Shown here: piece by piece, positions 3,001 through 53,170 of the stretch
How positions within the stretch are numbered: the first letter of the stretch is position 1
Layout: each line of letters opens with the position of its first letter
Source of the DNA: Anadara kagoshimensis
Taxonomy: Eukaryota; Mollusca; Bivalvia; Arcoida; Arcidae
Direction: 5' to 3'
Assembly (NCBI GenBank): GCA_021292105.1
Contig: JACFYK010000021.1
Coordinates: 1 to 64,000 of the forward strand
Length of the DNA stretch: 64,000 nt
The notes under the pieces: model-generated
The model's database searches: none
Told to the model about the DNA's origin: nothing
What the model saw: only the letters and a program-made list of their open reading frames with translations
Translations under genes and position numbers: made by a program

Positions 3001-6000
3001 AAAGTACACAGTCAACATCTACATTGCTTGAAGATTATGTTAAAGTACATAACCAACATCGATATTGCTTGAAGATTATGTTAAAGTACACAGTCAACAT
3101 CTATATTGCTTGAAGATTATGTTAAAGTACATAGCCAACATCAATATTGCTTGAAGATTATGTTAAAGTACATAGTCAACATCGATATTGCTTGAAGATT
3201 ATGTTAAAGTACGTAGTCAACATCGATATTGCTTGAAGATTATGTTAAAGTACATAGACAATATCGATATTGCTTGAAGATTATGTTAAAGTACACAGTC
3301 AACATCTATATTGCTTGACGATTATGTTAAAGTACATAACCAACATCGATATTGCTTGAAGATTATGTTAAAGTACAGAGCCAACATCGATATTGCTTGA
3401 AGATTATGTTAAAGTACATAGCCAACATCGATATTGCTTGAAGATTATGTTAAAGTACATAGCCAACATCGATATTGCTTGAAGATTATGTTAAAGCACA
3501 TAGTCAACATCGATATTGCTTGAAGATTATGTTAAAGTACATAGCCAACATCGATATTGCTTGAAGATTATGTTAAAGTACATAACCAACATCTATATTG
3601 CTTAAAGAATTTGTTACAGTACATAACCAACATCGATATTGCTTGAAGGTTATGTTAAAGTACATAGTCAACATCGATATTGCTTGAAGGTTATGTTAAA
3701 GTACATACCCAACATCGATATTGCATGAAGATTATGTTAAAGTACACAGTCAACATCGATATTGCTTGAAGGTTATGTTAAAGTACATAACCAACATCGA
3801 TATTGCCTGAAGATTATGTTAATGTACATAGCCAACATCGATATTGCTTTAAGATTATGTTAAAGCAATAGTCAACATCGATATTGCTTGAAGATTATGT
3901 TAAAGTACATAGCCAACATCGATATTGCTTGAAGATTATTTTAAACACATAGCCAACATCGATATTGCTTGAAGATTATGTTAAAGTACATAGCCAGCAT
4001 CGATATTGCTTGAAGATTATGTTAAAATGCATAGCCAACATCGATAGTGCTTGAAGATTATGATAAAGTACATAACCAACATCGATATTGCTTGAAGATT
4101 ATGTTGAGGTACATAGCCAACATCGATATTGCTTGAAGATTATGTTAAAGTACATAGCCAACATCGATATTGCTTGAAGATTATGTTAAAGCAGATAGTC
4201 AACATCGATATTGCTTGAAGATTATGTTAAAATGCATAGCCAACATCGATAGTGCTTGAAGATTATGATAAGACATAACACCAACATCGATATTGCTTGA
4301 AGATTATGTTAGAGTACATAGCCAACATCGATATTGCTTTAAGATTATATTAAAATACATAGCCATCATCGATATTGTTTGAAGATAATGTTAAAGTATA
4401 TAGCCAACATCGGTATTGCTTCAGGATATGTTAAAGTATATAGCCAATATCGATAATGCTTCAAGATTATGTTAAAATACATAGTCAACATCGATATTGC
4501 TTGAAGATTATGTTAAAGTACATAGGTATCATCGATATTGCTTGAAGGTATTGTTGAACTACATAGCCAACATCGATATTGCTTGAAGGTATTGTTAAAC
4601 TACATAGCCAACATCGATATTGCTTGAAGGTATTGTTAAACTACATAACCAACATCGATATTGCTTGAAGATTATGCTAAAATGCAAATATCCATATTGT
4701 TTAAAGATTTTGATAAAGTACACAGTCAACATCGATATTGCTTGAAGATTATGTTAAAGTACATAGCCAACATCGATATTACTTGAAGATTATGTTACAG
4801 TACATAGCCAACATCGATATTGCTTAAAGATTGTGTTAAAGTACATAGCCAACATCGATATTGCTTGAAGATTATGTTAAAGTACATACCCAACATCGAT
4901 ATTGCTTGAAGATTATGTTAAAGTACACAGTCAACATCTATATTGCTTGAAGATTATGTTAAAGTACATAACCAACATCGATATTGCTTGAAGATTATGT
5001 TAAAGTACATAGTCAACATCGATATTGCTTGAAGATTATGTTAAAGTACATAACCAACATCGATATTGCTTGAAGATTATGTTAAGTACATAGTCAACAT
5101 CGATATTTGCTTGGAAGATTATGTTAAAGTACCTAGTCAACATCGATATTGCTTGAAGATATGTTAAAGTACATAGCCAACATCGATTGCTTGAAAGATT
5201 ATGTTAAAGCACATAGTTCCAACATCGATATTGCTTGAAGATTATGTTAAAGTACACAGTCAACATCTATATTGCTTGAAGATTATGTTAAAGTACATAA
5301 CCAACATCGATATTGCTTGAGATTATGTTAAAGTTACATAGTCAACATCGATATTGCTTGAAGATTATGTTAAAGTGACCTAGTCAACATCGATATTGCT
5401 TGAAGATTATGTTAAAGTACATAGCCAACATCTATATTGCTTGAAGATTATGTTAAAGTACTAACCAACATCGATTATTGCTTGAAGATTATGTTAAAGT
5501 ACATAACCAACATCGATATTTGCTTGAAGATTATGTTAAGTACATAGTCACATCGATATTGCTTGAAGATTATGTTAAAGTAACATAGTCAACATCGATA
5601 TTGCTTGAAGATTATGTTAAAGTACTAGTCAAACATCGATATTGCTTGAAGATTATGTTAAAGTACATAGTCAACATCGATATTGCTGAAGACTTATTGT
5701 TAAAGTACATACCCAACAAAGAAATTGCATGAAGATTATGAAAGTACATAGCCCAAATCGGATATTGCTTGAAGATTATGTTAAAGTACATAACCAACAT
5801 CTAGATTGCTTGAAGATTATGCTAAGTACATAGCCAACATCGATATTGCTTGAAGATTATGTTAAAGTACATAGCCAACATCGATATTGCTTGAAGATTA
5901 TGTTAAAGCACATAGTCAAACATCGATATTGTTGAAGATTATGTTAAAGTACAAGTCAACATCGATATTGCTTGAAGATTATGTTAAAGTACATACCCAA

Positions 6001-9000
6001 CATCGATATTGCATTGAAGATTATGTTAAAGTACATAGCCAACATCGATTATTGCTTGAAGATTATGTTAAAGTACATAACCCAACATCGATATTGCTTG
6101 AAGGTTATGTTAAAGTACATAGTCAACATCGATATTGCTTGAAGATTATGTTAAAGTACATACCCAACATCGATATTGCTATGAAGATTATGTTAAAGTA
6201 CACAGTCAAACATCGATATTGCTTGAAGGTTATGTTAAAGTACATAGCCAACAGCGATATTGCTTGAAGATTATGTTAAAGCATAGTCAACATCGATATT
6301 GCTTGAAGATTATGTTAAAGTACATAGCCCATCGATATTGCTGAAATTATTTTAAAGCACATAGTCAACATCGATATTGCTTGAAGATTATGTTAAAGTA
6401 CATAGCCAGCATCGATATTGCTTGAAGATTATGTTAAAAGCATAGCAACATCGATATTGCTTGAAGATTATGATAAAGTAATTAGCCACATCGATATTGC
6501 TTGAAGATTATGTTAAAGTACATAGCCAACATCGATATTGCTTGAAGATTATGTTAAAGCACATTGTCAAAACATCGATATTGCTTAAAGATTATGTTAA
6601 AGTACATAGCCAACATCGATATTGCTTGAAGATTATGTTAAATACATGACCAAAACTGATATATTGCTTGAAAGATTATGTTAAATTACATAACCACATC
6701 GATATTGCTTGAAGATTATGTTAAAGTACATAGCCAACATCGATATTGCTTGAAGATTATGTAGAAACATAGCCAACATCGATATTGCTTGAAGATTATG
6801 TTAAAGTACATAGCCAACATCGATATTGCTTGAAGATTATGTTAAAGCACATAGTCTACATCGATATTGCTTGAAGATTATGTTAAAGTACATAGCCAAC
6901 ATCGATATTGCTTGAAGATTATGTAAAGCAGATAGTCAACATCGATATTGCTTGAAGATTATGTTAAAGACATAGCCAACATCGATATTGCTTGAAGATT
7001 ATGTTAATGTATATAGCCAACATCGATATTGCTTGAAGATTATGTTAAAGCACAAGTCAACATCGATATTGCTTGAAGATTATGTTAAAAGTAATAGGTC
7101 AACATCGATATTGCTTTGAAGATCAGTTAAAAGTACATAGCCAACATCGATATTGCTTGAAGATTATGTAAAGCACATAGCCACAATCGATATTGCTTGA
7201 AGATTATATTAAATACATGGCCAATCATCGATATTGTTTGAAGATATGTTAAAGTATCATAGCCAACATCGATATTGCTTGAAGATTATGTTAAAAGTAC
7301 ATAGCCAACATCGATATGCTTGAAGATTATGTTAAAGACACAGTCAAACATCTATATTGCTTGAAAGGATTATGTTAAAGTACATAGCCAACATCGATAT
7401 TGCTTGAAGATTATGTTAAAGTACATAGTCAACATCGATATTGCTTGAAGATTATGTTAAAGTACCTAGCAACATCGATATTGCTTGATGAAGATTATGT
7501 TAAAGTACATAGCCAACATCGATATTGCTTGAAGATTATAAAGTACGTAGTCACATCTATATTGCTTGGAGATTATGTTAAAGTACATAGCCAACATCGA
7601 TATTGCTTGAAGATTATGTTAAAGCACATAGTCTACATCGATATTGCTTGAAGATTATGTTAAAGTACATAGTCAACATCGATATTGCTTGAAGATTATG
7701 TTAAAGTACATACCCAACAAAGAAATTGCATGAAGATTATGTTAAAGTACATAGCCAACATCGATATTGCTTGAAGATTATGTTAAAGTACATAACCAAC
7801 ATCTATATTGCTTGAAGATTATGCTAAAGTACATAGCCAACATCGATATTGCTTGAAGATTATGTTAAAGTACATAGCCAACATCGATATTGCTTGAAGA
7901 TTATGTTAAAGCACATAGTCAACATCGATATTGCTTGAAGATTATGTTAAAGTACATAGTCAACATCGATATTGCTTGAAGATTATGTTAAAGTACATAC
8001 CCAACATCGATATTGCATGAAGATTATGTTAAAGTACATAGCCAACATCGATATTGCTTGAAGATTATGTTAAAGTACATAACCAACATCGATATTGCTT
8101 GAAGGTTATGTTAAAGTACATAGTCAACATCGATATTGCTTGAAGATTATGTTAAAGTACATACCCAACATCGATATTGCATGAAGATTATGTTAAAGTA
8201 CACAGTCAACATCGATATTGCTTGAAGGTTATGTTAAAGTACATAGCCAACATCAATATTGCTTGAAGATTATGTTAAAGCAATAGTCAACATCGATATT
8301 GCTTGAAGATTATGTTAAAGTACATAGCCAACATCGATATTGCTTGAAAATTATTTTAAAGCACATAGTCAACATCGATATTGCTTGAAGATTATGTTAA
8401 AGTACATAGCCAGCATCGATATTGCTTGAAGATTATGTTAAAATGCATAGCCAACATCGATATTGCTTGAAGATTATGATAAAGTAATTAGCCAACATCG
8501 ATATTGCTTGAAGATTATGTTAAAGTACATAGCCAACATCGATATTGCTTGAAGATTATGTTAAAGCACATTGTCAACATCGATATTGCTTAAAGATTAT
8601 GTTAAAGTACATAGCCAACATCGATATTGTTTGAAGATTATGTTAAAATACTTGACCAAAACTGATATTGCTTGAAGATTATGTTAAATTACATAACCAA
8701 CATCGATATTGCTTGAAGATTATGTAAGAGTACATAGCCAACATCGATATTGCTTGAAGATTATGTAAGAGAACATAGCCAACATCGATATTGCTTGAAG
8801 ATTATGTTAAAGTACATAGCCAACATCGATATTGCTTGAAGATTATGTTAAAGCACATAGTCTACATCGATATTGCTTGAAGATTATGTTAAAGTACATA
8901 GCCAACATCGATATTGCTTGAAGATTATGTTAAAGCAGATAGTCAACATCGATATTGCTTGAAGATTATGTTAAAGTACATAGCCAACATCGATATTGCT

Positions 9001-12000
9001 TGAAGATTATGTTAATGTATATAGCCAACATCGATATTGCTTGAAGATTATGTTAAAGCACATAGTCAACATCGATATTGCTTGAAGATTATGTTAAAGT
9101 ATATAGTCAACATCGATATTGCTTGAAGATCATGTTAAAGTACATAGCCAACATCGATATTGCTTGAAGATTATGTTAAAGCACATAGCCAACATCGATA
9201 TTGCTTGAAGATTATATTAAAATACATGGCCATCATCGATATTGTTTGAAGATAATGTTAAAGTATATAGCCAACATCGATATTGCTTCAAGATTATGTT
9301 AAAGTATATAGCCAATATCGATAATGCTTCAAGATTATGTTAAAATACATAGTCAACATCGATATTGCTTGAAGGTCATGTTAAAGTACATAGCTATCAT
9401 CGATATTGCTTGAAGGTATTGTTAAACTACATAGCCAACATCGATATTGCTTGAAGGTATTGTTAAACTACATAGCCAACATCGATATTTTTTGAAGGTA
9501 TTGTTAAACTACATAGCCAACATCGATATTGCTTGAAGGTATTGTTAAACTACATAACCAACATCGATATTGCTTGAAGATTATGCTAAAATACATAGCA
9601 AATATCGATATTGTTTAAAGATTTTGATAAAGTACATAGCCAACATCGATATTGCTTGAAGATTATATTGAAGTACACAGTCAACATCTATATTACTTGA
9701 AGATTATGTTACAGTACATAGCCAACATCGATATTGCTTGAAGATTATGTTAAAGCACATAGTCAACATCGATATTGCTTGAAGATTATGTTAAAGTACA
9801 TAGCCAACATCGATATTGCTTGAAGATTATGTTAAAGTACATACCCAACATCGATATTGCATGAAGATTATGTTAAAGTACATAGCCAACATCGATATTG
9901 CTTGAAGATTATGTTAAAGTACATAGCCAACATCGATATTACTTGAAGGTTATGTTAAAGTACATACCCAACATCGATATTGCATGAAGATTATGTTAAA
10001 GTACATACCCAACATCGATATTGCATGAAGATTATGTTAAAGCACATAGTCAACATCGATATTGCTTGAAGATTATGTTAAAGTACATAGCCAACATCGA
10101 TATTGCTTGAAGATTATGTTAAAGTACATACCCAACATCGATATTGCATGAAGATTATGTTAAAGTACATAGCCAACATCGATATTGCTTGAAGATTATG
10201 TTAAAGTACATACCCAACATCGATATTGCATGAAGATTATGTTAAAGTACATAACCAACATCGATATTGCTTGAAGGTTATGTTAAAGTACATAGTCAAC
10301 ATCGATATTGCTTGAAGGTTATGTTAAAGTACATAGTCAACATCGATATTGCTTGAAGGTTATGTTAAAGTACATACCCAACATCGATATTGCATGAAGA
10401 TTATGTTAAAGTACACAGTCAACATCGATATTGCTTGAAGGTTATGTTAAAGTACATAGCCAACATCGATATTGCTTGAAGATTATGTTAAAGCAATAGT
10501 CAACATCGATATTGCTTGAAGATTATGTTAAAGTACATAGCCAACATCGATATTGCTTGAAGATTATTTTAAAGCACATAGTCAACATCGATATTGCTTG
10601 AAGATTATGTTAAAGTACATAGCCAACATCGATATTGCTTGAAGATTATGTTAAAGTACATAGCCAACATCGATATTGCTTGAAGATTATGTTAAAGCAC
10701 ATTGTCAACATCGATATTGCTTAAAGATTATGTTAAAGTACATAGCCAACATCGATATTGCTTGAAGATTATGTTAAAATACTTGACCAAAACTGATATT
10801 GCTTGAAGATTATGTTAAATTACATAACCAACATCGATATTGCTTGAAGATTATGTTAGAGTACATAGCCAACATCGATATTGCTTGAAGATTATGTTAG
10901 AGTACATAGCCAACATCGATATTGCTTGAAGATTATGTTAAAGTACATAGCCAACATCGATATTGCTTGAAGATTATGTTAAAGCACATAGTCTACATCG
11001 ATATTGCTTGAAGATTATGTTAAAGTACATAGCCAACATCGATATTGCTTGAAGATTATGTTAAAGCAGATAGTCAACATCGATATTGCTTGAAGATTAT
11101 GTTAAAGTACATAGCCAACATCGATATTGCTTGAAGATTATGTTAAAGTATATAGCCAACATCGATATTGCTTGAAGATTATGTTAAAGCACATAGTCAA
11201 CATCGATATTGCTTGAAGATTATGTTAAAGTATATAGTCAACATCGATATTGCTTGAAGATCATGTTAAAGTACATAGCCAACATCGATATTGCTTGAAG
11301 ATTATGTTAAAGTACTTGATCAAAACTGATATTGCTTGAAGATTATGTTAAAGCACATAGCCAACATCGATATTGCTTGAAGATTATATTAAAATACATG
11401 GCCATCATCGATATTGTTTGAAGATAATGTTAAAGTATATAGCCAACATCGATATTGCTTCAAGATTATGTTAAAGTATATAGTCAACATCGATATTGCT
11501 TCAAGATTATGTTAAAATACATAGTCAACATCGATATTGCTTGAAGATCATGTTAAAGTACATAGCTATCATCGATATTGCTTGAAGGTATTGTTAAACT
11601 ACATAGCCAACATCGATATTGCTTGAAGGTATTGTTAAACTACATAGCCAACATCGATATTTTTTGAAGGTATTGTTAAACTACATAGCCAACATCGATA
11701 TTGCTTGAAGGTATTGTTAAACTACATAACCAACATCGATATTGCTTGAAGATTATGCTAAAATACATAGCAAATATCGATATTGTTAAGATTTGATAAA
11801 GTACATAGCCAACATCGATATTGCTTGAAGATTATATTGAAGTACACAGTCAACATCTATATTGCTTGAAGATTATGTTACAGTACATAGCCAACATCGA
11901 TATTGCTTGAAAATTATGTTAAAGTACATACCCAACATCGATATTGCTTAAAGATTGTGTTAAAGTACATAGCCAATATCGATATTGCTTGAAGATTATG

Positions 12001-13704
12001 TTAAAGTACATAGCCAACATCGATATTGCTTGAAGATCATGTTAAAGTACATAGCCATCATCGTTTGCTTGAAGGTATTGTTAAACTTCATAGCCAACAT
12101 CGATATTGCCTGAAGATTATGTTAAACTTCATAGCCAACATCGATATTGCCTGAAGATTATGTTAAAGTTCTTGACCAAAACTGATATTGCTTGAAGATT
12201 ATGTTAAAGTATATAGCCAACATCGATATTGCTTGAAGATTATGTTAAAGTACATAGCCATCATCGATATTGTTTGAAGATAATGTTAAAGTATATAGCC
12301 AACATCGATTTTGCTTCAAGATTATGTTAAAGTACATAGCCAACATCGATATTGCTTGAAGATTATGTTAAAGTACATAGCCAACATCGATATTGCTTGA
12401 AGATTATGTTAAAGTACTAGCCAACATCGATATTGCTTGAAGATTATGTTAAACTACATAGCCAACATCGATATTGCTTGAAGATTATGTTAAAGTACAT
12501 AGCCAACATCGATATTGCTTGAAGGTTATGTTAAAGTACATAGTCAACATCGATATTGCTTGAAGGTTATGTTAAAGTACATAGCCAACATCGATATTGC
12601 TTGAAGATTATGTTAAAGTACATAGCCAACATCGATATTGCTTGAAGATTATGTTAAAGTACATAGTCAACATCGATATTGCTTGAAGGTTATGTTAAAG
12701 TACATAGTCAACATCGATATTGCTTGAAGATTATGTTAAAGTACATAGCCAACATCGATATTGCTTGAAGATTATGTTAAAGCACATAGTCAACATGGAT
12801 ATTGCTTGAAGATTATGTTAAAGTACATAGTCAACATCGATATTGCTTGAAGGTTATGTTAAAGTACATAGCCAACATCGATATTGCTTGAAGATTATGT
12901 TAAAGTACATAGCCAACATCGATATTGCTTGAAGATTATGTTAAAGTACATAGCCAACATCGATATTGCTTGAAGATTATGTTAAAGCAGTCAACATCGA
13001 TATTGCTTGAAGATTATGTTAAAGCACACAGTCAACGTCGATATTGCTTGAAGATTATGTTAAAGTACATAGTCAACGTCGATATTGCTTGAAGATTATG
13101 TTAAAGTACATAGCCAACATCGATATTGCTTGAAGATTATGTTAAAGTACATAGTCAACATGGATATTGCTTGAAGATTATGTTAAAGTACATAGTCAAC
13201 GTCGATATTGCTTGAAGATTATGTTAAAGCACATAGTCAACATGGATATTGCTTGAAGATTATGTTAAAGTACATAGTCAACGTCGATATTGCTTGAAGA
13301 TTATGTTAAAGCACATAGTCAACATGGATATTGCTTGAAGATTATGTTAAAGTACATAGCCAACATCGATATTGCTTGAAGATTATGTTAAAGCACATAG
13401 TCAACATGATATTGCTTGAAGATTATGTTAAAGTACATAGTCAACGTCGATATTGCTTGAAGATTATGTTAAAGCACATAGTCAACATGGATATTGCTTG
13501 AAGATTATGTTAAAGTACATAGCCAACATCGATATTGCTTGAAGATTATGTTAAAGCACATAGTCAACGTCGATATTGCTTAAAAATATGTTAAAGTAGT
13601 CAACATCGGAATTTCTTTAAGATTATGTTAAAGTACTTGACCAACACTGATATTGTTTGAAGATTATGTTAAAGTACATAGCCAACATCGATATTGCTTG
13701 AAGA
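1..13704. repeat. 41-bp satellite array (about 330 copies)
   Basis: Head-to-tail copies of a 41-bp AT-rich unit built around AACATCGATATTGCTTGAAG, then ATTATGTTAAAGTACATAG and a variable two- or three-base linker (tc, cc, ac). The array runs from the first base, so its left end lies outside the window; it stops near 13704 in AAGAC. Recognisable variants (TTGCATGAAG, CTTGACCAAAACTGATATTG, GAAGGTATTGTTAAACTAC) recur in the same order, showing higher-order repeats. Short ORFs appear only because 41 is not a multiple of three and each frame cycles through a 41-residue pattern; none is a gene. A satellite or heterochromatic role is inference. Confidence 0.97.
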
Positions 13705-25613: not shown

Positions 25614-26066
25614 CAAGTTGCAAATTTTCAAAATACATAATAATAATAAAAGTGCTTATCGGGACCATATCTGAAGTACGTTACCTATTTAACATTGTAC
25701 AGCGTTCAGCATTGGATACCTAGTAAGTAACTATTTCTTATTCCAAATTCAAATAAATAAATCTTTCCAATACGGATATTCTGGGTTACCGTTTTCCGGA
25801 CCGGTTCCGGATATTATGTATGTCTTAAATCACGTGATTTTCCTCAAAAGTTCCACAGGCCAACTTCCGGTTTGGATGCAATACACATCTCAGCTGATTA
25901 ATCGGACGTGAAAAACAAGTTCGGTAAGTAATATTTACACTGGATTTGGAATGAAGCGGTCGCCATTAGTAACTTTTATTGTTTTAGCATCATCAAAAGA
26001 GAAAATGTGGGTATTTATGTGTTTTATAATGCACAAATGACGGAAATTTGGTCATGTACATGTGCA
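25614..26066. other. No gene supported
   Basis: Includes GGTTCCGGATATTATG and AACTTCCGGTTTGG stretches that resemble fragments near 32870-32950, so part of it may be dispersed repeat. No ORF of note. Confidence 0.4.
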
Positions 26067-26685
26067 CTAGAAGGGGGTTTTACCGGAATTATTGCGAAAA
26101 TCCGGAATAATCAGACCAAATCCGGAATAAACCAAATTGATCCGGAATAATCAGGTAAAGTCCGGAATAAACCGGTAAAATCCGGAATAATCAGGCAAAA
26201 TCCGGAATAATTGGACTATTTTGTTACGGTAAGTTTTCCGTAATCTAAAAATTACGGTAAGTGTCTGATTATTTCGGAAAATGACCGATTATTACGGAAA
26301 AGGTCTAATTATTTCGGCAAATGTCCAATTATTACGGGAAATTTTTTAAATAATAATAATTTTTTTTTAATTTTTTTACCGTAATAATTGGACATTTGCC
26401 GGAATAATTAGATTTTTACCGTAATAATCAGTCTTACCAGAATAATCAGACAAGTTACCGTAATAATCAGACACTTGTCGGAATTTTTAGAATCCGTAAA
26501 ATTTACCGTAAAAATATTCTTATTATTCCGGATTTTGACCAATTATTCCGGATTTTGTCCGATTATTTCGGATTTGGTCTAAAAATTCCGGAATTGATCT
26601 AAACATTCCGGATTTTCGCAAAGATTACGGAAAGTGTCTTACTATTCCGGAATTTCGCAATTATTCCGGTAAAACCCCCTTCTAG
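26067..26685. mobile_element. 619-bp foldback element made of a short repeated motif
   Basis: The ends are inverted copies: CTAGAAGGGGGTTTTACCGG at 26067 and its complement ending at 26685. The left arm carries about six TCCGGAATAA motifs spaced roughly 20 bp; the right arm carries the complement (TTATTCCGGA-like) many times. A T-rich centre sits near 26345-26375. Motifs with TTACGG in place of TTCCGG fill the zone around the centre. Almost the whole element is one imperfect palindrome. There is no ORF and no convincing target duplication beyond a possible TA. It is probably a MITE or foldback element. Confidence 0.85.
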
Positions 26686-26847
26686 TAATCTGTTGTAGTT
26701 GTCATTCTAAGCAGCACATAAGAACACCTGAAAATACACTTTCTTACTTAATATCCTGACTGAGGATAGAACCCAGCCCTCCTAGGTGACAAGTGAGCAT
26801 TGTACTACAATTTGTCCTCAAAGCCAAAAGATCTGGACCAGAAAGTT

Positions 26848-27135: not shown

Positions 27136-30100
27136 TCTATGTACACCACCACAGCTAGGTCAGTCCTGCTTCACATCTGTATAGAGTTAATTACTGTGTA
27201 CACCACCACAGCTAGGTCAGTCCTGCTTCACATCTGTATAGAGTTAATTACTGTGTACACCACCACAGCTAGCTCAGCCCTGCTTCACATCTGTATAGAG
27301 TTAATTACTGTGTACACCACCACAACTAGCTCAGCCCTGCTTCACATCTGTATAGAGTTAATTACTGTGTACACCACCACAGCTAGCTCAGCCCTGCTTC
27401 ACATCTGTATAGAGTTAATTACTGTGTACACCACCACAACTAGCTCAGCCCTGCTTCACATCTGTATAGAGTTAATTACTGTGTACACCACCACAGCTAG
27501 GTCAGCCCTGCTTCACATCTGTATAGAGTTAATTACTGTGTACACCACCACAGCTAGCTCAGCCCTGCTTCACATCTGTATAGAGTTAATTACTGTGTAC
27601 ACCACCACAGCTAGGTCAGTCCTGCTTCACACCTGTATAGAGTTAATTACTGTGTACACCACCACAGCTAGCTCAGCCCTGCTTCACATCTGTATAGAGT
27701 TAATTACTGTGTACACCACCACAGCTAGGTCAGTCCTGCTTCACATCTGTATAGAGTTAATTACTGTGTACACCACCACAGCTAGCTCAGCCCTGCTTCA
27801 CATCTGTATAGAGTTAATTACTGTGTACACCACCACAGCTAGGTCAGCCCTGCTTCACGTCTGTATAGAGTTAATTACTGTGTACACCACCACAGCTAGC
27901 TCAGCCCTGCTTCACATCTGTATAGAGTTAATTACTGTGTACACCACCACAGCTAGGTCAGTCCTGCTTCACATCTGTATAGAGTTAATTACTGTGTACA
28001 CCACCACAGCTAGGTCAGCCCTGCTTCACATCTGTATAGAGTTAATTACTGTGTACACCACCACAGCTAGCTCAGCCCTGCTTCACGTCTGTATAGAGTT
28101 AATTACTGTGTACACCACCACAGCTAGCTCAGCCCTGCTTCACATCTGTATAGAGTTAATTACTGTGTACACCACCACAGCTAGGTCAGCCCTGCTTCAC
28201 ATCTGTATAGAGTTAATTACTGTGTACACCAACACAGCTAGCTCAGCCCTGCTTCACATCTGTATAGAGTTAATTACTGTGTACACCACCACAGCTAGGT
28301 CAGCCCTGCTTCACATCTGTGTAGAGTTAATTACTGTGTACACCACCACAGCTAGCTCAGCCCTGCTTCACATCTGTATATAGTTAATTACTGTGTACAC
28401 CACCACAGCTAGCTCAGCCCTGCTTCACATCTGTATAGAGTTAATTACTGTGTACACCACCACAGCTAGGTCAGCCCTGCTTCACATCTGTATAGAGTTA
28501 ATTACTGTGTACACCACCACAGCTAGCTCAGCCCTGCTTCACATCTGTATAGAGTTAATTACTGTGTACACCACCACAGCTAGGTCAGCCCTGCTTCACA
28601 TCTGTGTAGAGTTAATTACTGTGTACACCACCACAGCTAGGTCAGCCCTGCTTCACATCTATATAGAGTTAATTACTGTGTACACCACCACAGCTAGCTC
28701 AGCCCTGCTTCACATCTGTATAGAGTTAATTACTGTGTACACCACCACAGCTAGCTCAGCCCTGCTTCACATCTGTATAGAGTTAATTACTGTGTACACC
28801 ACCACAGCTAGGTCAGCCCTGCTTCACATCTGTATAGAGTTAATTACTGTGTACACCACCACAGCTAGCTCAGCCCTGCTTCACATCTATATAGAGTTAA
28901 TTACTGTGTACACCACCACAGCTAGCTCAGCCCTGCTTCACGTCTGTATAGAGTTAATTACTGTGTACACCACCACAGCTAGCTCAGCCCTGCTTCACAT
29001 CTGTATAGAGTTAATTACTGTGTACACCACCACAGCTAGCTCAGCCTGCTTCACATCTGTATAGAGTTAATTACTGTGTACACCACCACAGCTAGCTCAG
29101 CCCTGCTTCACATCTGTGTAGAGTTAATTACTGTGTACACCACCACAGCTAGGTCAGCCCTGCTTCACATCTGTATAGAGTTAATTACTGTGTACACCAC
29201 CACAGCTAGCTCAGCCCTGCTTCACATCTGTATATAGTTAATTACTGTGTACACCACCACAGCTAGGTCAGCCCTGCTTCACATCTATATAGAGTTAATT
29301 ACTGTGTACACCACCACAGCTAGCTCAGCCCTGCTTCACATCTATATAGAGTTAATTACTGTGTACACCACCACAGCTAGCTCAGCCCTGCTTCACATCT
29401 ATATAGAGTTAATTACTGTGTACACCACCACAGCTAGGTCAGTCCTGCTTCACATCTGTATAGAGTTAATTACTGTGTACACCACCACAGCTAGGTCAGC
29501 CCTGCTTCACGTCTGTATAGAGTTAATTACTGTGTACACCACCACAGCTAGGTCAGCCCTGCTTCACATCTGTGTAGAGTTAATTACTGTGTACACCACC
29601 ACAGCTAGGTCAGCCCTGCTTCACATCTATATAGAGTTAATTACTGTGTACACCACCACAGCTAGGTCTGTCCTGCTTCACATCTGTATAGAGTTAATTA
29701 CTGTGTACACCACCACAGCTAGGTCAGCCCTGCTTCACATCTGTGTAGAGTTAATTACTGTGTACACCACCACAGCTAGGTCAGCCCTGCTTCACATCTA
29801 TATAGAGTTAATTACTGTGTACACCACCACAGCTAGGTCTGTCCTGCTTCACATCTGTATAGAGTTAATTACTGTGTACACCACCACAGCTAGCTCAGCC
29901 CTGCTTCACATCTGTATAGAGTTAATTACTGTGTACACCACCACAGCTAGCTCAGCCCTGCTTCACATCTGTATAGAGTTAATTACTGTGTACACCACCA
30001 CAGCTAGGTCAGCCCTGCTTCACATCTGTATAGAGTTAATTACTGTGTACACCACCACAGCTAGCTCAGCCCTGCTTCACATCTATATAGAGTTAATTAC

Positions 30101-31306
30101 TGTGTACACCACCACAGCTAGCTCAGCCCTGCTTCACATCTGTATAGAGTTAATTACTGTGTACACCACCACAGCTAGCTCAGCCCTGCTTCACATCTGT
30201 ATAGAGTTAATTACTGTGTACACCACCACAGCTAGCTCAGCCCTGCTTCACATCTGTATAGAGTTAATTACTGTGTACACCACCACAGCTAGCTCAGCCC
30301 TGCTTCACATCTGTGTAGAGTTAATTACTGTGTACACCACCACAGCTAGGTCAGCCCTGCTTCACATCTGTATAGAGTTAATTACTGTGTACACCACCAC
30401 AGCTAGCTCAGCCCTGCTTCACATCTGTATATAGTTAATTACTGTGTACACCACCACAGCTAGGTCAGCCCTGCTTCACATCTATATAGAGTTAATTACT
30501 GTGTACACCACCACAGCTAGCTCAGCCCTGCTTCACATCTATATAGAGTTAATTACTGTGTACACCACCACAGCTAGCTCAGCCCTGCTTCACATCTATA
30601 TAGAGTTAATTACTGTGTACACCACCACAGCTAGGTCAGTGCTGCTTCACATCTATATAGAGTTAATTACTGTGTACACCACCACAGCTAGCTCAGCCCT
30701 GCTTCACATCTGTGTAGAGTTAATTACTGTGTACACCACCACAGCTAGGTCAGTGCTGCTTCACATCTGTATAGAGTTAATTACTGTGTACACCACCACA
30801 GCTAGGTCAGCCCTGCTTCACGTCTGTATAGAGTTAATTACTGTGTACACCACCACAGCTAGGTCAGCCCTGCTTCACATCTGTGTAGAGTTAATTACTG
30901 TGTACACCACCACAGCTAGGTCAGCCCTGCTTCACATCTATATAGAGTTAATTACTGTGTACACCACCACAGCTAGGTCTGTCCTGCTTCACGTCTGTAT
31001 AGAATTAATTACTGTGTACACCACCACAGCTAGCTCAGCCCTGCTTCACGTCTGTATAGAGTTAATTACTGTGTACACCACCACAGCTAGCTCAGCCCTG
31101 CTTCACATCTGTATAGAGTTAATTACTGTGTACACCACCACAGCTAGCTCAGCCCTGCTTCACGTCTGTATAGAATTAATTACTGTGTACACCACCACAG
31201 CTAGCTCAGCCCTGCTTCACATCTGTATAGAGTTAATTACTGTGTACACCACCACAGCTAGGTCAGCCCTGCTTCACATCTGTATAGAGTTAATTACTGA
31301 CTACAC
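27136..31306. repeat. 57-bp tandem array (about 73 copies)
   Basis: Unit: TGTACACCACCACAGCTAGC, TCAGCCCTGCTTCACATCTG, TATAGAGTTAATTACTG. Because 57 is 19 codons and one frame of the unit lacks a stop, that frame stays open for blocks of 223-414 codons (period VYTTTASSALLHICIELIT). It is interrupted by TAG variants (GAG to TAG) near 28381, 29235 and 30432 and by a 1-base deletion near 29046. The frequent variants (AGG/AGC, GCC/GTC, ATC/GTC, TGT/TAT, ATA/GTA) nearly all change the amino acid, which argues against protein constraint. I treat it as satellite, not a gene. Confidence 0.95.
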
Positions 31307-37123: not shown

Positions 37124-37316
37124 TGTCATATGCCATTTTTGAATGTATTTTATGATTAAATTCAAAACCCAAAACTTAGAAATTTCATTCAAAATTATAA
37201 AATAAATCTTATTCACATATTGTATGTGATTACTGATTTTGTTTCTAATTTCGAATGAAATTTCTAAGTTTGGGGTTTTGTATTTTATGATTAAATTCAA
37301 AAAATGGTATATGACA
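37124..37316. mobile_element. 193-bp hairpin MITE
   Basis: TGTCATATGCCATTTTTGAA at the left faces a near-exact complement at the right (TTCAAAAAATGGTATATGACA). The arms continue through ACTTAGAAATTTCATTC (37176) and its complement at about 37254, leaving a loop of about 60 bp. No ORF. Confidence 0.75.
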
Positions 37317-44665: not shown

Positions 44666-44907
44666 ATTGAACGTTACGAGCTGTGAAATGACAGTTATAA
44701 CATTGGATATTGTATTTAATATTTATATAGATTTGTGTTGTTGCATTTAAAAAGAAAATTTTGTTGTTATATTAATGTTTTGCTTTTATTCCCCACTCTA
44801 ACGAAGTTGGCGACTTGGAAGGGATATAGAAATGGAGTCTATCAATGTTTGTATGTCTCTCCATGTTAAGTATATGCGATTTTGTTTGTTCAATGCAATA
44901 AAAGCTT

Positions 44908-45083
44908 TAGTTACTTATGTAGAGGGCACTATCAAGATTTACGGACTGCCCTCGGGGTGAGTATTCGGACCAACGTTTTGATATGACCCTCGCCTGCGGC
45001 TCGGGCCATATCAAAATGTTGGTCCGAATACTCAACCTCGGGCAGTCCGTAAATCTTGATAGTGCCCTCTGCATAAGTAACTA
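44908..45083. mobile_element. 176-bp hairpin element
   Basis: TTAGTTACTTATGTAGAGGG at the left and its near-exact complement at the right extend through AAGATTTACGGACTGCCC and GAGTATTCGGACCAAC into arms of about 80 bp around a loop of about 14 bp (CGCCTGCGGC). No ORF. Typical of a short MITE; a stem-loop in RNA would be very stable. Confidence 0.85.
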
Positions 45084-46257
45084 ATGCATAAAGAGTGCTT
45101 GCACCGCACTGATATAAAAAATCTTGGGAGATCAGATCCCGACCTGGTCTGAAAAGATTACCTTTTCATTTACCATCGTGTCATGTGTTCAATACCGTTT
45201 GTGCGAACGATATGAAAAAATTGCACCCCAAATTTCCGGATCATTGAATTTTTACGCTAAAATGATTTCGAGCAAATTTTCTCTTAAAACTTCATAAGGC
45301 ATCACAAGTTTGCACAACAAATGTTGAACTTTTAGCTACTTCAACTGTAGCTAATGATATCTTTAAATATGTGAAATAAAGACTTGGACGTTAGATTCAT
45401 TTAATCGATATTTTCGTTTAGTCATCATACCAAAATTCATATACATAGATAAACTTATTGACAAGAATAATGCTAACATATTAGTAAAATAACAGTAGGG
45501 CAAGTTACAATAATTCTTTGCGGGGATTGAGCATTGAGCATTTCAGTCAGAGACAAGGCTTGCTTAGTCTCTGACAGAAATGTTCAACCCCGAGGGTGAA
45601 ATGTCCCTGTCCTATATAGATAAACTCATAATTGATTTTTTACGAATTATCGTAGTTTTTAACTGCATACATTTGTGTCGAGGCGACAGAATCTAGGGGA
45701 AAACCGTAATTTCTGTTTACATAACATTTCAATCTGATGACGTCATTACAACAAAACTGAAGTAGTTCGTGAACAAACGCACGCTATCTTGTATCAGACC
45801 TTGTATCAGTTCATGAATTATTTTTTTTGCTAAATAGATATTTGTTGTTAGTTAAAGTCCGTATTGTACAATAACTATGATGATTGGGTCCATCCAATAT
45901 TACTGTAACCACCATCCTAGACATTTACTACTGTGGTCATCCTATGTCAATAGTTTTATAATCAGTGTTTATTTATTGTCTCTATCAGGAACTCATACTC
46001 TGCTGCATCATATGTTGACAAGTAACACAAACTTACCGGTCGATGTTCAAATCACAATATTAAAAGTTAAAAACAAACATATTAAACCATGTCTAAAATA
46101 CTAAAAGCAAAGTAACTGGCAAATTAGTGAACACGTGAATTCCCGCCAGGGAAGTGAGATCTTGTGCTCCGGATGGGTAATGATATGATTTCATTCCAAT
46201 TAAAAGGAATATTTTAATTATAAATTTCTTGATTCTGTTAATAACTTTTATATTTAT
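45084..46257. other. No gene; small hairpin at 45530-45595
   Basis: At 45530-45595 the arms GGGGATTGAGCATT...CAGTCAGAGAC and GTCTCTGACAG...AATGTTCAACCCC face each other. A 75-codon frame at 45877-46104 overlaps a fragment of dispersed family A (46105-46180) and is not supported as a gene. Confidence 0.5.
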
Positions 46258-47995: not shown

Positions 47996-49375
47996 TGGCT
48001 ACTGGTACACATACATCTGACGTAGTGACGTAGTCAATATCGTGTTTCGCTTCATCACACAGACATGACTGTTGCATGATTATAGATTTTTCTACCTACA
48101 TGCACTGTCAGCCGCCTAGCATGTTCACATTGCACTGACTTCTAATCGTTACATGTTGCAGGGGTCCTAACATTTTCGAGGTCCAAAAATATAGGAAAAA
48201 ATGGAAATATGACATCAAAATTATAGGAGTTTCATAGGAAATTATAGGAGTTTCTACTAAAATTATAGGAATATTTTTAAATAATTTACACAAAAAATAT
48301 ACATCCATGGCCTCTCCTACAGCCATTTTCTCCTTTTACTAACAAACATGAAATGAGGTGCGCCAAGCGAAAACCAGGCTTATGGTCAAAATTTTCGATT
48401 TTAAGTTAAATACATATTCTTAAAGTGTATTTCTTGTAGTTTCGAAAAATACCAACTTTTTGGAAATATTTTACCTAGAACCTATTTTAATTTACGTTTA
48501 AAGTATAGTAGGCCGGGGGCCAGTGGGGTCCACCATGCACCCCCCCCCAGGACAAATTTTCATGGGTGCCAAATTGTTCCCTAGGGTCTACAGAATGAGA
48601 AGATTTTTTGTTTCCATGAATTAACTCATTCCCACTATGTACAATATTACCGTTTCCATGGCAACCTTTATTCTTTTAAATAGTAGTGGGTAGAGACTTT
48701 AAATCAGCCACATCTTGCTCGTTTCGTAAGATAAATTGACAAACTTGGTACCAAAATGGAGCAGATGCATTGGCCTTTATTATACTGTATCAGTATGCTA
48801 ATTAGCTCATTTGCATATTTATGCATATTCGTTAGAATGTTATTTTGTGGTCCAATTTTTTTTACAAAATCCAATTACAATCATTTCTGAAGCCTGTTGC
48901 AATGACAAGTAGGTTTATATTGTAGACAAATATGCTTCAGTATCCTCACTGAGATAGGAATATGATGATTAAGCTAATTATATGCCTCAAAGTGACGTAA
49001 ATTTGAGATAAATTTCAATAATACTGTTTCTATAGCAACCAATATGTTAAGTAACAGTGAGTAGTGGAAGTAAATTAGTCATATCTCTGACAATTCTAAA
49101 GATACAATAGCAAGCATGGTACGAAACTGGACAAGAGGCACTGCACTTAACTTAAGTATAAGTATGTTAATTAGGTGATTTGCATATCAATTAATATGCA
49201 TAAGAATGTAAGTTTTGTCCAAATTAGGTGTAAAATAAAACAAACGTCATTTTTGTAACACAGTGCCTAGATCATTTGTATTAAGACCTAAACTTCCTTT
49301 ATTTCTTCCTTCCAATCTCCATGTCTCAAAATTTCTTCTTTTTGTATTTTATAGGAACCTGTGTAACTAAGCATC

Positions 49376-50224
49376 ATGGAGCGAAAACGAAGTAGGGGCA
49401 GACCAAAGAAACCCAAAGAAGAGGGATCCAGCCCGTCAAGCCCCAAGAGACAACAGATTTGTTTTCTGCACTATGACAGTTCCAAATGTGACACTTTTGT
49501 CCTTTTATTGGGTCTTGAAAACCCAACGGAAAGGCTGCTAGATATCCACAATATTCGTGATAGAAGACAGTCAGATCCAATTGGTTCCAAACATAGAATG
49601 GACTCTGTCTGCGAACAGATACCCAATCAGGTGGATGAAGGATACGGTTACCACCGCGACTGTTACCAGCATTTTATCAACCACCTGGATAGATTGCAGA
49701 CACCAGGGCATAGTGATGGACCACCAACTGCAAAAATAAACCGTAGACGATCGAGTGTAGATAAAATAACATTGTTTGCAAAAGATTGCATTTTTTGCAA
49801 TAAAGAAGGAAAGATTGCCATTAAAAAGTCTGCAGGTTGGACAACGCAAACACCATCAAAATTTGTGACGGATGCATGGAAAACTGTGGTGGAATGTGCA
49901 GAAAAGAAGAAAGACGAAAAGCTGTTGGTGCGAATAAGAGGTTATGACTTGTTCGCAGCAGAAGCACACTTCCATTCAAGTTGTAAAAAGAAGTATTTAC
50001 AAGATCCTGATTACTGGAGAAGTACAGACAGTGAAGCGAAATTGCATCAAGAAGAACTAGAAGAAGCACATGAAAGAGCATTCCGTCAGGTGTGCGACAG
50101 AGTCTCTATAGAAGTAATTGACAACAATGGTGTTCTTAAGCTTGTAGAATTATTGAAAATAATTAGAAATGTTATACTCAATGCCTTTGAGAATTCAGGT
50201 GCTTTGAAGAAGGATACCATCTGA
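49376..50224 (+). CDS. AT-hook/zinc-ribbon-like transposon protein, left-arm copy (internally deleted)
   Basis: 282 codons. The N-terminus is basic with an AT-hook core RGRPKK (residues 7-12). Two pairs of possible metal ligands follow: Cys29/His32 with His93/Cys96, and Cys138/Cys141 with His200/Cys203, a layout suggesting two zinc-binding modules. After the residues LVELLK the frame jumps to NVILNAFENSGAL because about 229 bp present in the right arm are missing here, and the last few residues are read from the palindrome's centre. A plausible splice acceptor (a T-rich stretch ending TTTTATAG at 49354) lies 21 bases before the ATG, so an upstream exon may exist. It resembles uncharacterised transposon-linked proteins of cnidarians and molluscs; function unknown, DNA binding inferred. 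Confidence 0.75.
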   Translation: MERKRSRGRPKKPKEEGSSPSSPKRQQICFLHYDSSKCDTFVLLLGLENPTERLLDIHNIRDRRQSDPIGSKHRMDSVCEQIPNQVDEGYGYHRDCYQHFINHLDRLQTPGHSDGPPTAKINRRRSSVDKITLFAKDCIFCNKEGKIAIKKSAGWTTQTPSKFVTDAWKTVVECAEKKKDEKLLVRIRGYDLFAAEAHFHSSCKKKYLQDPDYWRSTDSEAKLHQEELEEAHERAFRQVCDRVSIEVIDNNGVLKLVELLKIIRNVILNAFENSGALKKDTI

Positions 50225-50229
50225 TTTGT

Positions 50230-51318
50230 CTATATGCTCCGCAGTGGGGGCCATCTCAAAGCACCTGAATTCTCAAAAGCATTGAGTATAACATTTCTTA
50301 ATTTTTCTGCAACATCTGTCAGAGTGTCCCTCCTTCCAAGAATAAATGCACTCTGCACTGCTTTCTCCAACTTCATACTTGAACTGTAAATGAGCTGTGA
50401 TTTATACTGTCCTTTTTGCTCTATCTGACAGAAGGTGATCTGCTCACCATAGGTACTCTGAAGTTTTGCTTTCAACTTCTCACCCCTATACTCTGCATTT
50501 GGGAAATTTGTCTCATCTAACGCCGTAGTATACATTTTCAATAATTCTACAAGCTTAAGAACACCATTGTTGTCAATTACTTCTATAGAGACTCTGTCGC
50601 ACACCTGACGGAATGCTCTTTCATGTGCTTCTTCTAGTTCTTCTTTATGCAATTTCGCTTCACTGTCTGTACTTCTCCAGTAATCAGGATCTTGTAAATA
50701 CTTCTTTTTACAACTTGAATGGAAGTGTGCTTCTGCTGCGAACAAGTCATAACCTCTTATTCGCACCAACAGCTTTTCGTCTTTCTTCTTTTCTGCACAT
50801 TCCACCACAGTTTTCCATGCATCCGTCACAAATTTTGATGGTGTTTGCGTTGTCCAACCTGCAGACTTTTTAATGGCAATCTTTCCTTCTTTATTGCAAA
50901 AAATGCAATCTTTTGCAAACAATGTTATTTTATCTACACTCGATCGTCTACGGTTTATTTTTGCAGTTGGTGGTCCATCACTATGCCCTGGTGTCTGCAA
51001 TCTATCCAGGTGGTTGATAAAATGCTGGTAACAGTCGCGGTGGTAACCGTATCCTTCATCCACCTGATTGGGTATCTGTTCGCAGACAGAGTCCATTCTA
51101 TGTTTGGAACCAATTGGATCTGACTGTCTTCTATCACGAATATTGTGGATATCTAGCAGCCTTTCCGTTGGGTTTTCAAGACCCAATAAAAGGACAAAAG
51201 TGTCACATTTGGAACTGTCATAGTGCAGAAAACAAATCTGTTGTCTCTTGGGGCTTGACGGGCTGGATCCCTCTTCTTTGGGTTTCTTTGGTCTGCCCCT
51301 ACTTCGTTTTCGCTCCAT
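50230..51318 (-). CDS. AT-hook/zinc-ribbon-like transposon protein, right-arm copy (probably 3'-truncated)
   Basis: 362 codons on the minus strand, mirror image of the left-arm gene and one residue different in the shared part (Lys for Gln in LHKEELEE). It shows the same AT-hook at residues 7-12 and the same Cys/His pairs. Unlike the left copy it keeps a central segment (from MYTTALDETNFPN to TLTDVAEKL), then NVILNAFENSGALRWPP and a short LRSI ending. A one-base shift just after RWPP would extend the reading frame through the palindrome's centre, so I suspect a frameshifted fragment of a longer protein. No transposase or recombinase catalytic motif is visible. Role in mobilisation unknown. 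Confidence 0.75.
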   Translation of the reverse strand: MERKRSRGRPKKPKEEGSSPSSPKRQQICFLHYDSSKCDTFVLLLGLENPTERLLDIHNIRDRRQSDPIGSKHRMDSVCEQIPNQVDEGYGYHRDCYQHFINHLDRLQTPGHSDGPPTAKINRRRSSVDKITLFAKDCIFCNKEGKIAIKKSAGWTTQTPSKFVTDAWKTVVECAEKKKDEKLLVRIRGYDLFAAEAHFHSSCKKKYLQDPDYWRSTDSEAKLHKEELEEAHERAFRQVCDRVSIEVIDNNGVLKLVELLKMYTTALDETNFPNAEYRGEKLKAKLQSTYGEQITFCQIEQKGQYKSQLIYSSSMKLEKAVQSAFILGRRDTLTDVAEKLRNVILNAFENSGALRWPPLRSI

Positions 51319-52611
51319 GATGCTTAGTTACACAGGTTCCTATAAAATACAAAAAGAAGAAATTTTGAGACATGGAGATTGGAAGGAAGAAATAAAGGAA
51401 GTTTAGGTCTTAATACAAATGATCTAGGCACTGTGTTACAAAAATGACGTTTGTTTTATTTTACACCTAATTTGGACAAAACTTACATTCTTATGCATAT
51501 TAATTGATATGCAAATCACCTAATTAACATACTTATACTTAAGTTAAGTGCAGTGCCTCTTGTCCAGTTTCGTACCATGCTTGCTATTGTATCTTTAGAA
51601 TTGTCAGAGATATGACTAATTTACTTCCACTACTCACTGTTACTTAACATATTGGTTGCTATAGAAACAGTATTATTGAAATTTATCTCAAATTTACGTC
51701 ACTTTGAGGCATATAATTAGCTTAATCATCATATTCCTATCTCAGTGAGGATACTGAAGCATATTTGTCTACAATATAAACCTACTTGTCATTGCAACAG
51801 GCTTCAGAAATGATTGTAATTGGATTTTGTAAAAAAAATTGGACCACAAAATAACATTCTAACGAATATGCATAAATATGCAAATGAGCTAATTAGCATA
51901 CTGATACAGTATAATAAAGGCCAATGCATCTGCTCCATTTTGGTACCAAGTTTGTCAATTTATCTTACGAAACGAGCAAGATGTGGCTGATTTAAAGTCT
52001 CTACCCACTACTATTTAAAAGAATAAAGGTTGCCATGGAAACGGTAATATTGTACATAGTGGGAATGAGTTAATTCATGGAAACAAAAAATCTTCTCATT
52101 CTGTAGACCCTAGGGAACAATTTGGCACCCATGAAAATTTGTCCTGGGGGGGGGTGCATGGTGGACCCCACTGGCCCCCGGCCTATAGTCGATAATTAAC
52201 GACGTTCAAAATTTTACATATTAATAACGTCATGTTATGGGTGAGTAACGTCCGTCAAAATAACGTTGTTATACACATACTCCACGACATTATATGTTAT
52301 TTCATTTCGTAATTTAAAACTTGTACATCTCAATAATACAATAGTTTGTACAATGCTCCATATGAGTCCAACATAAGGAAGAATTGAAACAATCGAGCAA
52401 ATTTCAGTGGTAGTTCTTAAGATTCTGTTGATTCATAAGTGTCTACTGAAAGTTATAAAAAATAGTTTATAAAAAACAGATTGTGAGGACGATAAGGCAG
52501 CAAAGAAGCTAGTTTTTTATGAAATGAATAAGTAATAACAGTAAATGATATTGAAATTGTCATTTATTAATGACGAATAAAAAACAATATTTAATATATG
52601 AATGATATATA

Positions 52612-52759
52612 GAGGATCTTGCATGAGCGTTTATGTAATATTGAATTTATTAAACGAGTTGAATAATTTTTTATGCAACGAGCCTTGGCGAGTTGCATAA
52701 AACATTATTCAACGAGTTTAATAAATTCAATATTGCATAAACACGAATGCAAGATTCTA
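52612..52759. mobile_element. 148-bp hairpin element
   Basis: AGGATCTTGCATGAGCG, TTTATGTAATATTGAATTTA and GTTGAATAATTTTTTATGCA at the left face nearly exact complements at the right, around a CCTTGG loop. Arms of about 70 bp; no ORF. Same architecture as 44908-45083 but unrelated sequence. Confidence 0.8.
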
Positions 52760-53170
52760 TTTATTATATAATCCCATAAAAACTGTTTTTTCGTAGATTT
52801 AAAACTTCTCTTCTCATTATAAAGAAAACAGCTGATTGACCGAAACACAACAAGTTCACGTAAATGTGTACATGCGCCAAAATTAATCCTGCTAAAATAT
52901 TAAAAGTAAACAATAGTCTGTCCACAGGATACAAAAACAAAACAAACATTTTTAATTTAAATACAATGTATCTTCTTTTTAGAAGAAAAGTACAAAAGTA
53001 TCAACTTAAATTAGAATCAACAAACAGTGTCAAATGAAACAAACTGTGGATCAAGTCAATTGTGTGACGTCACTCTGAAATGACTTTATGCTTTATGACG
53101 TCACACTCATTCAATACGATTTTTATTGTATGACCGTATTACATGGATTATTGAGTAGATTATATAATAA

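Follow-up and report, generated by a model that had tools for sequence, protein, structure and literature searches.

The DNA analyzed here, the first 64,000 nucleotides (nt) of contig JACFYK010000021.1 from the bivalve Anadara kagoshimensis (assembly GCA_021292105.1; hereafter the window), carries a 3,677-bp palindromic element at positions 48509 to 52185, made of two arms of 1,652 nt with a direct repeat on both flanks. We consider it highly probable that this element is a non-autonomous derivative of a young DNA transposon of the DUF6589 type, and that such derivatives are born by copying of a transposon end, are moved by transposase supplied in trans and are weak at their fold. Twelve of the 14 two-ended copies of this family found in the host genome are palindromes.

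A palindrome of one transposon end

Direct comparison of the two arms (48509-50160 and 50534-52185) showed that they are reverse complements over their whole length with one mismatch (50048 C / 50646). The inverted repeat ends at the transposon ends, which read TAGGCC...GGCCTA, and the left and right flanks of the element are not mirrored. The 19-base end is present twice in the window, and no match to it with up to three mismatches was found in 100 shuffles. A preliminary description, made from the letters of this DNA, had proposed a 3.7-kb transposon-derived palindrome with near-identical arms, and the arms, the family ends and the target duplication bear this out. The five-base duplication ATAGT given there is ruled out: the 14 two-ended copies of the family share the same boundary, which yields a 3-bp duplication, here TAG (48506-48508 and 52186-52188), and ATAGT is TAG with a chance extension.

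Both arms are of the 5' type. They match bases 1-1649 of the parent transposon at 99.3%, and the right arm runs on to base 1975, so that the element consists of the first ~1.95 kb of the parent in two inverted copies, joined at a 48-nt-wide fold. Coordinates and alignment showed that the left arm is without a net 231 bp found in the right arm (77 codons, with the frame kept); this deletion lies directly outside an inner 51-nt inverted repeat, inside of which is a loop of 48 nt. The one-sided deletion next to the center that had been described at 229 bp is indeed one-sided, in the left arm and near the center, and its size is corrected to a net 231 bp in frame.

The same open reading frame (ORF) starts in each arm and encodes 282 amino acids on the plus strand and 362 on the minus strand. 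The earlier view that each arm holds a whole gene does not hold, since each contains the N-terminal quarter of the transposase gene or less, the right ORF corresponding, at 98% identity, to residues 1-361 of the uninterrupted 1,568-amino-acid protein of another copy. In 2,000 single-base shuffles of the joined coding regions of the two arms, read in three forward frames, no stop-free run of 360 codons arose. The right-arm ORF retains two C..C/H-x2-C clusters. Each arm of this 5'-5' form has the region upstream of the gene and the gene start, and those of the two arms point towards each other.

No family above the cut-off was obtained in a Pfam scan of the window ORFs alone, no match in an Rfam scan of the window, and no relative in protein scans of IMG/VR and GTDB. 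Matches of the end motif to three viral contigs were ruled out, being GC-rich (57-62%) and without likeness past 18-20 bases.

A transposon family made up mostly of palindromes

The host assembly (1.115 Gb in 36 contigs) was searched with three DNA queries, the left part of the window element, the 3' part of the parent and its 127-bp end. All three returned the same 18 loci; the candidates (31, 31 and 32) were all scored, and the counts are lower bounds. The 127-bp query gave 32 family ends, with 14 loci two-ended and 4 one-ended, and the two-ended copies that are not palindromes are the two full-length ones. That palindromes are the main form with two ends in this family could not be known from the letters of the window, on which the preliminary description drew. 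One palindrome is of the 5' end (that in the window) and 11 are of the 3' end (L015 and L017-L026). They are 3.15-5.0 kb long with paired arms of about 1.5-2.5 kb (the length of L026 is taken from match limits), the pairing in L023 being split into 1.0 and 1.1 kb. The one-ended loci comprise two half palindromes (L016 and L027), a lone ~70-bp end (L028) and a fragment without the 3' end (L014), in which bases 1-825 are joined to 3825-4344 and which is the only ordinary internal-deletion derivative seen. No short copies like miniature inverted-repeat transposable elements, which are short, non-coding and high in copy number, were present among the 18 loci found; the palindromes are kilobases long and carry coding fragments.

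With TAGGCC taken as the end, all 14 two-ended copies are flanked by a perfect 3-bp duplication; 13 of these were computed, and that of L026 (ATT/ATT), whose left end is slightly damaged, was read by eye. The flanks were not mirrored in any of the 13 copies tested, 11 of them palindromes (all palindromes except L026). The 11 two-ended palindromes other than that of the window all lie on chromosome-size contigs.

The full-length copies are L012 (C4:22027093-22034048; 6,956 bp, duplication TTA) and L013 (on C14; 6,933 bp, duplication CAA). The former has a single uninterrupted ORF of 1,568 codons from an ATG, and in the latter the frame is broken. The outermost ~695 bp at each end form terminal inverted repeats that are ~91% alike, and it is this divergence that makes 5'-type and 3'-type ends distinguishable. 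The contrast drawn earlier between short-ended transposons and a gene within the inverted repeat was incomplete: the arms contain only an N-terminal gene part, and the two full-length copies already have inverted repeats of ~0.7 kb.

The L012 protein matched DUF6589 with an E value of 9.5e-5 over its whole length (21.7 bits) and 9.8e-6 over its middle part (24.9 bits), both under the curated cut-off of 27. Pfam gave no match of the family protein to P or MULE transposases, and neither Pfam nor a PDB search revealed a nuclease domain in it. Nothing meaningful came from the PDB sequence search or from a PDB profile of the C-terminal region, NCBIfam gave no family, and PHROGs gave matches with E values of 0.15 or worse only. 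DUF6589, on which a literature search gave no paper, presumably belongs to Academ. Academ elements encode an XPG-type nuclease. The 3-bp duplications, the DUF6589 match below the cut-off and this presumed link make it likely that the parent family is a member of Academ (AcademX), and by analogy it probably transposes by cut-and-paste. AcademX elements have 3-4-bp target duplications (PMC10045372), and amplification of Academ elements has been described in bivalves (PMC10294476).

A second DUF6589-type transposon of the same genome, here family B (L033, G000:C1:4790400-4798000), served for comparison. Its protein (DUF6589 E value 2.9e-4) is 27-28% identical to that of the parent family, and its terminal repeats are at least 908 bp long and 98% alike. 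The C-terminal regions of the two families have conserved acidic residues in common, and the YHR.C and CxxC...HxxC residues of the right-arm ORF clusters recur in the family B protein, which makes a DNA-binding role for the N-terminal Cys/His clusters plausible. Over 2,001 bp, each of the 40 copies scored (of 212 candidates) was given as 100% identical, and a protein search yielded 19 scored matches at 28-29% identity, every one of them in an uninterrupted frame of 1,549 or 1,570 codons; judged from these copies, family B is in an extreme, very recent burst. No opposite-strand partner within 10 kb was found among the scored candidates for its 5' region (40 of 212) and 3' region (40 of 209); in this control, coordinates were read by eye and the scoring covered about one in five candidates. 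It would appear from this that the possession of long terminal repeats is not in itself enough to yield palindromes at the rate of the parent family. Two further loci with 54% protein identity (G000:C2:52768019-52771456 and C15:16868619-16871435; open frames of 1,206 and 968 codons) may represent a third family.

Fold points, movement and probable number of births

The 14 palindromic loci, halves included, have nine distinct folds. In parent coordinates, fold 4583|4669 occurs at four loci (L018, L020, L026 and the half form L016) and fold 4942|4818 at three (L022, L025 and L015). In the alignment of L015 the junction is 5331|4818, and the 22 nt inserted there were recognized by eye as the 4942 side of the L025 junction; L015 was therefore counted as the same fold with a putative one-sided deletion. 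The target duplications differ among copies with the same fold: TAT, TTA and ATT in L018, L020 and L026, and TAT, GTG and ATA in L015, L022 and L025. The same fold at different sites with different duplications indicates that the palindromes themselves transpose, which implies that the transposase needs no more than a pair of identical ends.

The fold spacers measure 48, 86, 124, 55, 84, 121, 183 and 29 nt, and 635 nt in L023; eight of the nine thus lie between 29 and 183 nt, and seven are below 130 nt. Homology of at least 2 nt was observed at five of the nine folds, where pairs of points drawn at random from the 3' region would give 15% (P of about 0.006 in a binomial test); the folds of the window copy, L023 and L027, whose sides BLAST aligned with one inserted nucleotide, were scored as zero.

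The comparison of arm single-nucleotide polymorphisms (SNPs) bears on age and on the number of births. With 21 gapped columns set aside, the window arms share six sites found in neither full-length copy and differ from each other at one, which by this measure places the window palindrome among the younger copies. Arm-to-arm differences in the others number 0 in L018, 1 in L021, 6 in L017, 7 in L025, 9 in L020, 10 in L015 and L026, 11 in L019 and L023, and 15 in L022 and L024, which shows that arms are free to drift. The near-identity of the window arms had been ascribed to recent birth or to gene conversion between them. Youth fits the data, and conversion is not favored, as it is not needed when the arms differ at 6-15 sites in nine of the 11 other palindromes.

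Some palindromes carry SNPs on both arms that no other copy has, namely L017 (eight), L021 (seven), L023 (four), L025 (four) and L019 (two), and the sets of L017, L021, L023 and L019 fit separate parents. The arms of L022 and L024 group by side (FastTree support of 0.94 for one pair and 0.41 for the other) and their folds differ, which makes it most plausible that L024 descends from a palindrome of the L022 kind and was reshaped on the way. One end of the L027 fold (4818) is also that of the L022 and L025 group. Taken together, we infer about seven palindrome births, that of the window included.

Instability of the fold

Large one-sided deletions within about 110 nt of the fold are present in three of the 12 two-ended palindromes: the window copy (231 bp, at 51 nt), L015 (at 22 nt) and L019 (712 bp, at 107 nt). 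When the alignments of the other 3'-type arms are cut at these points, deletions of 138 and 50 bp are the largest left. In the half palindromes, sequence past the fold continues for 31 nt in L016 (6193-6223) and 38 nt in L027 (6834-6871) and then gives way to unrelated DNA; these ends are candidate breaks at the palindrome center, or assembly errors. The instability of the center proposed from the window copy is therefore supported across the family, in which L023, uneven at the fold by 635 nt, also belongs to this picture. Long near-perfect palindromes with short spacers are described as prone to breakage (PMC7999016).

Proposed mechanism and its alternatives

In the mechanism that we favor, a broken or nicked element end would fold back, or switch template, onto its own complementary strand. 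Copying of the folded end would give an inverted dimer with two identical transposase-binding ends, mostly with a short spacer and 0-4 nt of homology at the junction, and transposase from a full-length copy could then move it in trans. After birth the fold would be a weak point where DNA is lost on one side or a break occurs. In the 5'-5' form of the window, read-through from the facing gene starts might produce a long hairpin RNA directed at the transposase message, an idea first put forward for the maize locus Mu killer, and the truncated N-terminal protein could act as a repressor. In silencing plants Mu killer was associated with short antisense transcripts and not with a read-through hairpin, the hairpin being kept as a possible contribution (PMC3440606).

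Several observations weigh against this reading. The birth mechanism is deduced from the junctions alone, and three of the nine folds have a 1-nt insert, the two measures of homology disagree for L021 (5 by BLAST overlap, 2 by script) and L023 is uneven at its fold. All palindromes are known from assembled sequence alone, and that of the window lies on a contig of 433,554 bp, not of chromosome size. The control from family B rests on the candidates scored, 40 of 212 and 40 of 209. In addition, six of the 11 3'-3' palindromes lack SNPs that both arms share and no other copy has, L024, with arm SNPs in common with L022, looks reshaped, and L027 shares a fold end with the L022 group, so that a single ancestral 3'-3' palindrome, reshaped at its center, together with conversion between arms could account for part of what look like separate births.

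Taken to its full extent, this last point becomes the strongest alternative, although an unlikely one: a single ancestral 3'-3' palindrome that spread by transposition while its center was repeatedly cut back, the 5'-5' window form being the only second birth. The grouping of the L022 and L024 arms by side despite different folds means that at least one fold was probably reshaped, and this, the fold end of L027, the center breakage visible in L016 and L027 and the palindromes without SNPs private to both arms all agree with it. However, the both-arm private SNPs of L017, L021, L023 and L019 need separate births or conversion, and conversion is inefficient, given the extent to which arms differ. 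Moreover, random cut-back should leave uneven arms, yet most spacers are short.

Somewhat less likely still is an origin at the present site, in which an attempted excision was followed by faulty repair of the gap and the window palindrome has stayed there since. The target duplication would outlast such repair and the window is the only copy with its fold, but formation in place fails as a general account of the family, in which the same fold is found at four sites and at three.

That selection maintains the palindrome for silencing, by analogy with Mu killer, appears improbable. Its layout is like that of Mu killer, in which two transposase-side ends and about 1.3 kb of transposase gene are inverted (PMC3440606), and the family has two full-length copies and a single uninterrupted gene. 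However, 11 of the 12 palindromes derive from the 3' end, where the gene start is absent, elements so young exist without need of selection, and transcript data for Mu killer countered the original model of a read-through hairpin in favor of short antisense transcripts (PMC3440606).

An assembly or sequencing artefact, in which a fold-back read or misjoin made the mirror image, is very improbable, for although fold-back artefacts are described in long reads (PMC12870357) and the window contig is not of chromosome size, the mirror stops at transposon ends with a 3-bp duplication and with flanks unlike each other, the window arms differ by the 231-bp deletion and one base, and the other palindromes are on chromosome-size contigs, some with the same fold at different sites.

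Alongside birth by copying of ends we entertain, as a tentative extension that we would not yet bet on, the idea that palindrome birth is the normal fate of the family. Following excision or replication stress, single ends would repeatedly be copied through fold-back into inverted dimers, which would outcompete the full-length element because a pair of identical ends is enough for the transposase, and the 5'-5' window form is perhaps a self-made hairpin silencer of the last intact copy found. If this extension is true, a gene-bearing transposon is being turned into a population of mobile palindromes. The preponderance of palindromes, at least some of which still jump, is in any case an unusual route for a transposon family to decay and perhaps silence itself. 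Since fold points, target duplications and arm SNPs can be read copy by copy, the birth and breakage of palindromes become testable in one genome, and so does the question of whether inverted duplications arise often enough to be natural silencers.

Other features of the window

The coordinates of the parts of the element are collected in Table 1. The two direct repeats upstream of the gene (48642-48848 and 49016-49218, 70% identical) both keep the octamer ATTTGCAT (at 48809 and 49178). Elsewhere in the window there are two long satellites, one with a 41-bp unit in ~335 copies (3-13704) and one with a 57-bp unit in ~73 copies in which one frame is open over long stretches (27140-31306). Other, more diverged palindromic repeats (71-88% self-complementary) lie at 26066-26686, 37124-37316, 44904-45087 and 52579-52791.

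Table 1. Parts of the palindromic element, in window coordinates
Feature	Position	Strand	Remarks
Target-site duplication TAG, left copy	48506..48508	.	3-bp duplications in 14/14 two-ended copies
Left arm, 1,652 nt	48509..50160	+	Full-length transposon bases 1-1649 (99.3%)
Part of terminal inverted repeat	48509..49200	+	Also matches the parent's 3' end (91%)
Two diverged direct repeats, ~205 bp	48642..49218	+	70%; upstream of gene (48642-48848, 49016-49218)
Truncated N-terminal transposase ORF, 282 aa	49376..50224	+	In-frame loss of 77 codons
Inner 51-nt inverted repeat, left side	50157..50207	+	After the deletion; parent bases 1877-1927
48-nt loop	50208..50255	.	Fold point, parent bases 1927|1975
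Inner 51-nt inverted repeat, right side	50256..50306	-	
Right-arm-only stretch	50307..50533	-	Net arm difference 231 bp
Truncated N-terminal transposase ORF, 362 aa	50230..51318	-	Clusters C29,C38,H93,C96 and C138,C141,H200,C203
Right arm, 1,652 nt	50534..52185	-	
Target-site duplication TAG, right copy	52186..52188	.	

Comparison with known systems

The closest layout is that of Mu killer, an inverted duplication of part of MuDR in maize, in which both ends are transposase-side ends and two partial transposase copies are inverted, as in the window (PMC3440606). The window element is likewise an inverted duplication of a transposon end and the start of the transposase gene. For Mu killer a size of about 4 kb was proposed, and its center resisted PCR (PMC3440606). 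Mu killer stems from a plant Mutator element, is a single locus and has been shown to silence, by a mechanism that is debated (PMC3440606), whereas the family described here belongs to another superfamily and has a dozen palindromes, perfect 3-bp duplications and repeated folds showing movement.

Copies 147 and 145 of Galileo, a P-superfamily transposon of Drosophila willistoni, have extended inverted repeats and target duplications as here (PMC4168063). These repeats are 1575/1608 bp and 97.5% alike in one copy and 959 bp and 99.9% alike in the other, and copy 147 includes transposase sequence (PMC4168063). Extended repeats are described in three Galileo copies (112, 145 and 147) among 133 two-ended ones, in contrast with the share of palindromes in the present family, and Galileo has 7-8-bp duplications and a P-type transposase (PMC4168063). 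Tm1, a Foldback-type element of root-knot nematodes, has long inverted repeats and non-coding copies beside few coding ones, but its repeats are composite and of variable length, its duplications are of 9 bp and its transposase is of the Mutator type (Phantom) (PMC3169594). With Foldback- and Galileo-type elements the present family therefore shares long inverted repeats that make up most of the element, and not the P or Mutator transposase or the 7-9-bp duplications.

The 3-bp duplications, the long single protein and, given its presumed link to Academ, the DUF6589 match are in line with Academ and AcademX elements; Pfam and PDB searches gave no nuclease domain, and the sections of the AcademX literature available to us contain no mention of a palindromic population (PMC10045372, PMC10294476). 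Among the matches listed from the open-licence literature in PubMed Central there was, in the parts of the sources available, no account of a transposon family consisting mostly of palindromes. Palindromic transposon derivatives had been known as single cases; in this young family they account for 12 of the 14 copies that have two ends.

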